Assembly (NCBI RefSeq): GCF_000151665.1
Contig: NW_013171867.1
Coordinates: 64,946 to 128,945 of the forward strand
Origin: Blastocystis hominis
Taxonomy: Eukaryota; Sar; Bigyra; Opalinata; Blastocystidae
Length of the DNA: 64,000 nt
Direction of reading: 5' to 3'
The position numbers and the translations under genes were made by a program. The notes beneath the pieces are model-generated. The model was not told the DNA's origin. It did not search any database and saw only the letters and a list, made by a program, of their open reading frames with translations. Below, in pieces: positions 4,785-34,155 of the stretch (its first letter is position 1; every line of letters begins with the position of its first letter).

Positions 4785-6474
4785 ATGAGTTCAGATTATA
4801 TATTTAGCCAGATTAGAGAATCCTCGGATGTAGGTGTTTTTTCGATCGTTTAGGGATAGTGGTGTGAATCGGGGTATGAGGGTCTCTGCCTTGATGTTAT
4901 TGATAAATATTGGTGGGGAGTACTCATTGAGGTAATTATCTTCTTTATCACTTTCTCGATCATTGGAAATGTTTTTCTGTTGCTTTTTTTCGATCTTAGT
5001 TGTGCGATGAATTTTTAGTTCCTAGTCTTGAAATTATGAGTGTCAAGCTGAAGCTTAAGGAAGATGTAGCTGGAGCTTCGTTTTTAGCCTTTGGTGCCTC
5101 GGCCCCTGAAATTGTCATTAGCATTATTACCACAATCCAGGGAGGTGACAACGTGGATCTTGGTGTTGGATCCATCATTGGGTAGTTCTCTTATATTGCC
5201 CAATCAGGCATAGATCTGGAATGATTGGATTGATGCTAATTCCTGGTGTTTGCGGACTTGCTACAAAGCGTGATTTGGAGTTGAAACGTCGTCCTCTGAC
5301 GCGAGACGTTATTTTCTATTTGTTTTCTCTTGCCGGACTGGTTTATTTCCTCTGGGATGGAACGATCTACCCCCTGGAAGGAATTTATCTGATGCTCATC
5401 TATGTTATCTACATTGCCATCCTTATCTTCGCCCCCATGGTTCGCCGTCAATACCGAATCAAGAAGAATGTATTTGTGATGCGTCTCGTTTCCCCTAGTT
5501 AATCGACCCGAACGTTACGACATCGTTTATCACTCAGGAAGGGATGGACAGCGACGACGAGCGAGCGTATGAACCAATTGACGAGCGAGCGGATCTTACT
5601 CAGGACATCGCGATGGAAGTGGCTTGGAACCCCATCGATTCAAACGTTCCGCTGTCTCCGATGCTTCGTGTCCGCGCTTCCATTTCGAGTTTTTGATTTT
5701 TGCTGCGATTTCATCTAGGATTTTTGTCGAAGGTGGGATCTGTGTACCGCTCGTACATCGAGTTCCCTATTTCCTGGTTCTTTAGCCACGTGATTCCCAA
5801 ATGCGAGCACGGTTTTGCTAGCGATCGCTCTCTGATTTGCAGGAACATCCACCGAGAATCTCTTTGTAATCACATTCCTTTTGTCGATCTTCTGGGTGGC
5901 CTTGGTGACGTTTGTGATGAGCGCAGTGTGCCAACGTTGGGTTGCTTTAGTGGAGAATCTGGGCATGATATCCTTTAATATATTTCTTTTATTTTGATTT
6001 TTTGAATTTCCAAGTCGAAAAGAATCCTTAACTGCACTCTCCTAGTGTGGGAACGCTCGTGGGAATGGTGCTCATCGGTCTTGGAGCGTCCATTGCTGAT
6101 GTGATGCAGTGCTACACCGTGTCGCGAAAAGGCTATGGATCGATGGCTATCTCGAATAGCGTGGGATCCCAAATTCTTAACATCTGTGTGGGTCTGGGAT
6201 TGCCGTGGACGATTAAGGGATTCTCTTCGCATCAACCGGTCCACATCCCTGGATTCGACATCGTGTCCAAGGCGGGATTTTTGCTTGGATTTGGATCGCT
6301 GGTGCTCATCGGAATCACTCTCGGACCTGCTCTGATTTACAGAGAGAACAAATGCCGTTTGGGAAAGTAGGATTGGAGATTGTGTTTAAGGGGCGTAGTG
6401 GAAAAGGACTTCTCATGACACTCATTTATGTCCTGTGTATTGCCGTTTATTCCGTAGCCACGCTTTCCGCTTGA
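4785..6474 (+). CDS. SLC24: K+-dependent Na+/Ca2+ exchanger
   Basis: Membrane cation antiporter of the NCKX/CaCA family. Spliced protein is about 460 residues. The first alpha repeat reads LVPSLE then GASFLAFGASAPEI and GVGSIIGSG. The second reads GTLVGMVLIGLGASIADV and NSVGSQILNICVGLGLPW. A hydrophilic acidic loop lies between. Six short U2-type introns fit (about 5190-5220, 5469-5498, 5688-5717 and others). One intron, 5968-6037, has no GT-AG parse and is U12-type (AT-AC); removing it gives LGMSPSVGTLVG. A final 32-nt intron near 6368 leads to a last TM and TGA 6472-6474, where the T is followed by four bases and then TGTTTGTT, so the mRNA stop is probably made by polyadenylation. Confidence 0.88.
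5968..6037 (+). other. U12-type AT-AC intron in the NCKX gene
   Basis: The donor ATATCCTTT starts right after codon ATG 5965-5967. The branch-like TCCTTAAC is at 6025-6032 and the intron ends AC at 6036-6037 (70 nt). No GT donor is available that keeps the frame. Splicing here rebuilds the conserved second alpha repeat. Confidence 0.8.
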
Positions 6475-6476
6475 CC

Positions 6477-6484
6477 TGTTTGTT
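6477..6484 (+). terminator. Poly(A) motif TGTTTGTT of the NCKX gene
   Basis: Exact Blastocystis-type downstream motif. The last codon position T (6472) precedes it by four bases (GACC). Cleavage there would turn T into TAA and leave the genomic TGA out of the mRNA. Confidence 0.7.
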
Positions 6485-15677: not shown

Positions 15678-15844
15678 GGTGATCGAAATATATATGCCTT
15701 ATGCCACACAATATGTGTGTGTACACAGTGAGCCAACAGCATTTCTAACCCTAAAGTGAATAATCACAAGATCGGGAAAACCCATAATGAATATATTGGA
15801 TTTTTTCTTGGTCCTTATATAGTTCGAGGTAGGAAAGCACTTGC

Positions 15845-16143
15845 TGGGTTGAGTCGCGTCAACTTGTCACCCGAGCGGGAGTAGGTTGGCAGGAGGTGTA
15901 AGGTCCTTTGGGTGTTTGTTTGGACTGTCAGTGACTTGCCCAGTTGGCTTTGGTGGTTAACGTGGGGTTCTCTTAGGAATTCGAGAATGCCATGTTACTA
16001 GGGAATGGGGTACCGCTGGAGGCTGGCAACAGAGCACAGAAAACCCATCGTCACTTGAGCCAACTGGATTACGGGTCTATATGACATCCTTACAAAGTCC
16101 TTAGGAAGGTTTGCATCCACTGTTAATCGATTACTTATTTTTT
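15845..16143 (+). ncRNA. Signal recognition particle RNA (7SL), probable
   Basis: A GC-rich stretch between genes folds as expected for SRP RNA. Long helix 5: AAGG 15900/CCTT 16099, CTTTG 15906-15910/CAAAG 16093-16097, TGTCA 15926-15930/TGACA 16082-16086, CCAGTTGGCT 15940-15949/AGCCAACTGG 16058-16067. Helix 6: AACGTGG/CCATGTT and TTCTC/GAGAA with a GGAA tetraloop at 15976-15979. Helix 8: GGGGTACCG, then CTG-GCAA-CAG and AGAGCA near 16023-16036, and ACCC, close to the universal GGAAACGGAGCA element. TATATA at 15816-15821 and a T6 run at 16138-16143 suit pol III. The exact 5' end is inferred. Confidence 0.75.
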
Positions 16144-33064: not shown

Positions 33065-34155
33065 TATAAAATAGAATCTTTTCCATCAAAGACTCTTCCG
33101 ATGAACTCAATAATAAGCGAGCACAGTGTGCTCGTGCTGGCTGCAGCAGCAGCAAGTGCGTTAAAGGAACCATCCAACTGGTTTGTATCGAAAGGATATT
33201 CACTTCCTGATGAGAAGGTTCCACATAATCCGTATCATCCGGCATGACGCTCTATTTCTCACTCCAGCTTTTCTCTCTAACAATATTCGTAATCAGAGAC
33301 ACGGCAAAGACCTTGATTCCTAAGTGGCGTGCCGCCAAGACTTCATTGACCGTGCTCATCCCCGCAGCATCGCATCCAATCAGTCGGAAAAAGTGGCACT
33401 CCGCTGGGGTTTCATAGCAGGGACCCGACTGGCAGACATAAACTCCCTCCTGAAGGATCTTTTGCTGCCCTTGCGACTCCACCGTAGCGCGGAAAATCCT
33501 GCGGAGCTCGTCATCGTAGGCGTTGCAAAGCGAAGGGAAGCGAGTTCCCATCGACTCGTTATTGCGACCCACCTAACTCACACAGCACAGCCAACGATTA
33601 CCAAAGGGTTGTTGCCAGATAGACCAAGGAAACTGATGTGATCCTTGATCATCATTAAGTCGCCAACATGGAAGCTACTGTTGATTCCACCAGCAGCATT
33701 TGAGAGAATCACCATTTCGATTCCCAAAGCCTTCATAAGCGCCATTGGGATGGCTGTCTGGGCAGGTGTGTATCCCTGATAAAAGTGATATCTCTTTCCC
33801 ATGCAAACGCACGGAACTCCAGAGATAATTCCATAATAAACAGGGAATCTGTCATCTCCATCTCCGACTATGGTAAAAGCGATAAAAGAAAAGTACGATT
33901 CGAGCGATCATCCATAAGAACTTCCTTACAAAGATCCCTAAGGGAAACGTAACAAAATAGACTTACGTCAACTCAACCCGGTCTTGTAAAGTATTGCAGA
34001 GTGGACCAAGACCAGAACCACAGACGATACCTACTTTGGGAGGCTTTCCAACCACTTCCAAGCACTTTGCAGCAAGCGCCTTGCATTTTTCGAATGAATT
34101 CTACACCTTGATCAAAGATGAACTTCACTACAAAATATTCGTTTCCTTCTTCCAT
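33065..34155 (-). CDS. PNP: Purine nucleoside phosphorylase
   Basis: Phosphorolysis of purine nucleosides (salvage). The spliced frame starts MEEGNEYF; KVGIVCGSGLGPL carries the phosphate-binding glycine motif. GKRYHFYQGYTP, VILSNAAGGIN, GLSGNNPLVG, CYETPAE, GCDAAGMSTVNEVLAARH and SLITN follow in family order. Five U2-type introns of 28-31 nt, plus 33156-33199, which fits a U12-type AT-AC intron. There is no stop codon in the expected place. The frame reaches TTA T at 33066, four bases before TGTTTGTT (33061-33054), so polyadenylation would create UAA after DGKDSIL. Reading on would add an unrelated tail. Confidence 0.9.
33156..33199 (-). other. Probable U12-type AT-AC intron in PNP
   Basis: Donor ATATCCTTTC, branch-like TTCCTTTAAC, end GCAC (44 nt). 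Removal gives HQEVIAAAASTSTL, gapless against the family. A competing GT-AG parse (38 nt from GTTGGATGG) is also in frame but inserts extra residues, so this one is less certain than the others. Confidence 0.6.

Follow-up and report, generated by a model that had tools for sequence, protein, structure and literature searches.

The locus considered here raises the question of whether a 70-nt stretch with AT-AC ends, lying in a gene otherwise interrupted by very short U2-type introns, belongs to the minor spliceosome, and of what is to be made of a branch site so close to its 3' end. It lies in 64,000 nt of Blastocystis hominis DNA, called the window below, to which all bare positions refer. The signals, the reading frame, the homology, the snRNA genes and the spacing statistics are shown by the sequence itself; that the minor spliceosome performs the excision, and why the spacing is so short, are what we infer. 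Our reading, to which we assign a probability of about 0.92, is that 5968-6037 would be a U12-type AT-AC intron of a Blastocystis nuclear Na+/Ca2+ exchanger gene, and that the minor spliceosome would join 5967 to 6038.

The exchanger gene and its probable AT-AC intron

The host gene, encoding an NCKX-like Na+/Ca2+(K+) exchanger, extends over 4785..6474 (+) from ATG to TGA, with eight introns and a product of 468 aa whose N-terminal start is putative. In the gene model, seven of the introns are of the U2-type GT-AG class, all on the + strand: 4830..4859 (30 nt), 4971..4999 (29 nt), 5182..5213 (32 nt), 5470..5498 (29 nt), 5689..5718 (30 nt), 5812..5842 (31 nt) and 6367..6398 (32 nt). The preliminary description had spoken of 31-nt U2 introns, which is only approximate as to length, since the seven measure 29-32 nt. 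The Pfam family Na_Ca_ex (PF01699) matches the spliced 468-aa product at two places, with 134.8 bits. The top three relatives of this product are a pair of named Blastocystis proteins, one of which goes by the name of sodium potassium calcium exchanger, and an ENA protein without a name that is nearly identical to this exchanger. Identity to the Blastocystis protein relatives is 64-69%, which, along with the intron sizes, points to Blastocystis as the source. Together, the domain and the relatives support an NCKX-like gene, as proposed earlier. In addition, the stretch 6472-6484 (+) begins with the TGA stop of the exchanger and, two bases further on, has TGTTTGTT, which we take to be the motif of the Blastocystis polyadenylation signal.

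The eighth intron, 5968..6037 (+), is 70 nt long, in phase 0, and is recognized from its signals, the gene model and the orthologues. When it is kept, the frame shifts and a stop follows after nine codons; when it is excised, the conserved protein is restored, as judged from the gene model, Pfam and the orthologues. The stretch reads ATATCCTTT...AATCCTTAACTGCAC. Its 5' splice site, ATATCCTTT at 5968..5976 (+), agrees with the U12-type donor RTATCCTT, and its branch site, ATCCTTAAC at 6024..6032 (+), agrees with TTCCTTRAY, matching TTCCTTAAC at 8/9 positions. Donor and branch site are given as the defining features of U12-type introns in a review (PMC3584512). Within the branch site, the branch-like TCCTTAAC occupies 6025-6032 and the branch A is taken as 6031, so that the 3' splice site AC at 6036..6037 (+) falls 6 nt past it. 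The coordinates first proposed for this intron are thus exact, with donor, branch site and AC all in place. The donor ATATCCTT, the branch site TCCTTAAC and the AC end are shared with canonical AT-AC U12-type introns elsewhere, as these are described in PMC2831892. The one departure is the distance between branch site and 3' end, which according to the same review is optimal at 11-13 nt (PMC3584512); that optimum is the one of other lineages, and the distance is 6 nt in this intron and mostly 6-7 nt in this genome.

Choice of junction and evidence from orthologues

The preliminary description held that only this splice restores the conserved alpha-2 repeat, which is too strong. Enumeration of five terminal classes (GT-AG, GC-AG, GA-AG, AT-AC and AT-AG), with donors at 5880-6034 and acceptors up to 6109, yields 46 splice pairs that leave the frame open, and one of them scores slightly better than the AT-AC junction. 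This competitor is a 79-nt GA-AG intron, 5967-6045, which would be removed by the major spliceosome and whose AG lies 14 nt past the branch-like A. It was weighed because of its Pfam score, which for the C-terminal part of the protein is 56.5 bits against 51.6 bits for AT-AC (4.9 better); it is also in frame, giving a product three residues shorter with GIVGTLVG, and rare GA-AG introns are known in Blastocystis (PMC5608401). However, its donor would be off by one base from the strong ATATCCTTT; it would also ignore the AC and delete the residues SPS where the orthologues P0001 and P0002 code SPA[VI], and the 6-nt spacing, which it would circumvent, is nothing unusual in this genome. Disfavoured by the orthologues, the GA-AG junction is in our view highly improbable.

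The orthologues, compared as protein records rather than as DNA junctions, bear on the AT-AC junction to different degrees. The protein P0001, from Blastocystis sp. NMH, agrees with what the AT-AC junction predicts, reading QMGYSPAVGTLVG where the window gene gives NLGMSPSVGTLVG after AT-AC splicing. P0002, from ST4, codes SPAIGTLVG at the region of the AT-AC junction, but its gene model is odd just upstream of these residues and gives the junction itself no confirmation. A third, ST4-like record from ENA (P0003), with 342 aa encoded on a 1052-nt contig, is the same as P0002 up to the junction region and then ends in GLGYISFVHLII, which fits a read-through of ATATCCTTT at the same codon. Since a contig of 1052 nt leaves no room for introns, P0003 is probably derived from a transcript. 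Its reading into a stretch compatible with ATATCCTTT therefore suggests that the orthologous intron is present in the ST4-like strain and can be retained.

Minor-spliceosome RNAs and proteins

A U12-type intron calls for its own machinery, and the preliminary description took a working U11/U12 and U4atac/U6atac system to be implied. Rfam models, run on the window's own 18.7-Mb genome and on 14 control genomes, bear this out for the RNA genes: U6atac (61.6 bits), U12 (64.6) and U11 (49.5) each exceed their family cut-off, a U4atac candidate reaches 42.0 bits, under its cut-off of 53, and the four models have zero matches in the 14 control genomes. Energies computed without a shuffled control indicate that U4atac and U6atac could form a long duplex (-35.9 kcal/mol), that the U11 RNA of this genome could base-pair through its 5' end with six positions of the donor (-5.2 kcal/mol), and that the branch-recognition stretch of U12 could pair with the branch region (-7.7). 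Accepting the AT-AC reading, U11 would pair with AUAUCCUUU, and U12 would pair with AUCCUUAAC in such a way that the branch A (6031) stays free; once U4atac/U6atac/U5 have joined, the minor spliceosome would ligate 5967 to 6038, the AC that it uses lying just 6 nt from the branch A.

The U6atac RNA deserves separate mention. The AAGGA of U6atac pairs with the 5' splice site. The sole U6atac gene found (L001:1501-1617 (-), G000:C4:154865-154981) has a TATA-like box upstream and a T run at its end. Its positions 12-16 are GCCGA instead of the AAGGA of the family consensus, its sequence being UGAGCCGAGAGAAGG against UGAAAGGAGAGAAGG for the consensus. When folded with the donor, its first 23 bases yield -4.1 kcal/mol through a different stretch, compared with -6.4 for the consensus (both without shuffled control). 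A second copy with a normal element was not seen among the 67 matches listed (<=3 mismatches; 189 in the backward control), and among those listed an unbroken GAGAGAAGGTTAGC occurs in the known copy alone. The GCCGA could reflect either real remodelling or a sequence error. This unusual element, together with the fact that intron class is not set by terminal dinucleotides alone (PMC3584512), would be compatible with removal of the AT-AC intron by the major spliceosome, but the donor and branch site are near-perfect U12-type signals for which the U11 and U12 of this very genome could serve as pairing partners, so that a U2-type AT-AC intron hardly comes into consideration.

As for the 20K-65K proteins of the implied system, neither of two family searches confirmed one. 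The match to the U11-48K zinc finger (PF05253) was rejected, as it sits in a frame that resembles Trm13 in its motifs; one control genome out of 14, that of an archaeon, gave a match in this search too. The PDCD7/59K family (PF16021) has zero matches here and in all 14 control genomes and is, being silent in every genome, uninformative. Minor-spliceosome proteins have been reported for ST1 and ST7 (PMC5608401).

U12-like introns in the genome and the spacing of branch site and 3' end

The preliminary description presented U12-type introns as apparently undescribed in Blastocystis, where they had in fact been described already (Gentekaki 2017, PMC5608401; Larue & Roy 2023, PMC10639083). For ST1, the former reports 346 U12-type introns along with the full set of four snRNAs and seven of the proteins, and it places U12-type introns and components in ST7 as well. 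As far as that account describes them, these introns show no categorical difference from 5968-6037, with which they share AT-AC termini, U2 introns of ~30 nt and the four minor snRNAs. The latter counts 253 minor introns in ST1, of which 196/253 are AT-AC and 124/253 phase 0, with a median of 39 bp, and notes for B. hominis putative minor introns and the loss of 11/12 aligned ones (PMC10639083). In this regard, 5968-6037 resembles the ST1 minor introns in its AT-AC ends and its phase 0 but is longer (70 nt). As the U12 class is known in Blastocystis, a single further intron matters little.

In our pattern searches of the 18.7-Mb genome, RTATCCTT-N8-38-CCTTRAY has 39 matches against 9 for the backward pattern, and the strict form ATATCCTT-N8-38-TCCTTAAC has 3 against 0. 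For RTATCCTT-N39-69-CCTTRAY, the range in which 5968-6037 falls, the excess is weak, with 15 matches against 10. From the two backward controls (9 and 10 in 18.7 Mb), about 0.07 chance matches would be expected per 64 kb. The looser ATAT..TCCTTRAC..AC shows no excess, with 23 matches and 23 in the backward control. The idea of relaxing donor positions +7/+8 to suit the odd U6atac was dropped, translations of 11 looser-pattern sites being undecisive.

Splicing was judged by Pfam on 20 peptides other than that of 5968-6037, drawn from 31 junction peptides of which it is one; they cover short and long gaps and had been chosen beforehand for their long frames and for an AC/AG at 6-7 nt. A domain crosses the junction in 11 of them, the family lies elsewhere in 2, and there is none in 7. 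The crossing domains are dihydroorotate dehydrogenase, copine, LSM12, two amino-acid transporters, protein kinase, ERAP1_C, IP_trans, MA3, thioredoxin and DUF747, with the protein kinase and ERAP1_C matches under curated cut-offs. For 9/11 of these junctions, the frame would be lost with any other AC/AG within 3-15 nt. Because of the preselection, the 20 peptides confirm introns, but they give no independent estimate of the spacing.

That estimate comes from the pattern matches themselves. An AC or AG stands 6-7 nt past the branch A in 30/39 short-gap matches (AC 19, AG 11) and in 9/15 long-gap matches, compared with 30/123 background motifs (Fisher p = 6.5e-9 vs 30/39), the background consisting of the 123 CCTTRAY motifs in the window and loci L001-L090 that have no RTATCC nearby upstream. 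At 10-15 nt past the branch A, short-gap matches show no AC peak (0-2 per position); AG at 12 nt is somewhat raised (6/39 vs 4/123), so a few introns may have longer spacing. The preliminary description had put the branch A only about 6 nt from the end, shorter than usual; the distance is as given, whereas the oddity disappears, since 6-7 nt is commonest among the U12-like matches and the spacing of 5968-6037 is ordinary in this genome.

What looks less familiar than the U12 class itself is this Blastocystis spacing, about half the usual distance. We found no statement on it in the open-licence papers searched, although the sequence logo in Fig 1 of PMC5608401 may show it. Common to most U12-like matches, the short spacing probably reflects the general compaction of introns in the lineage. 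A further-reaching proposal, that the Blastocystis minor spliceosome has been remodelled, with a near-fixed 6-7-nt spacing and a U6atac 5'-splice-site helix largely lost, so that donors would be chosen mainly by U11, is one that we regard as rather doubtful. Of more consequence than the single intron, the spacing would show how short a distance from the branch point is enough for cutting by a minor spliceosome, and could serve as a rule for annotating Blastocystis minor introns. In this respect, intronIC takes its branch-site region from -55 to -5 from the intron end (PMC7367187), and the 2023 survey ran it at defaults (PMC10639083). With a region ending at -5, that survey may partly miss or under-score introns with 6-nt spacing, and a standard classifier of this kind may undercount them. 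The published ST1 counts differ, at 346 vs 253.

Within the window, a second AT-AC intron, of 44 nt, is probable at 33156..33199 (-), where the gene is one for a purine nucleoside phosphorylase (PNP_UDP_1), with its AC 5 nt past the branch A. The spliced product matches Pfam over residues 1-97 (50.0 bits), across the junction at residue 79, and the unspliced one over residues 1-55 (46.9 bits), so that splicing gains only 3.1 bits. A relaxed scan of the window gave 30 matches, a number that 20 first-order Markov sequences can also reach (mean 19.65, range 14-32), and the five further matches inspected contained no clear U12 intron. Of the three or four such introns initially proposed for the window, 5968-6037 therefore has support, and 33156-33199 (-) has it less firmly. 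An SRP RNA gene is also found in the window, at 15843-16127 (+) (Plant_SRP family, 109.8 bits).

Beyond the genome itself, pattern scans picked up 48 stretches in viral and 2 in bacterial contigs; there was no orthologous DNA in the viral contigs, and a plasmid search gave no match. Two of the candidate sites, L031 (G000:C24:406174-406225) and L033 (G000:C36:474754-474791), are AT-AC introns in two amino-acid transporter genes, apparently at the same codon (DIIFF|VGGF and DVLSF|IGNF), which suggests that the intron predates the duplication. Some candidate sites come in pairs on different contigs, identical or nearly so, at L059/L081 (C1, C40) and L011/L025 (C1, C15), and these pairs are perhaps segmental duplications.
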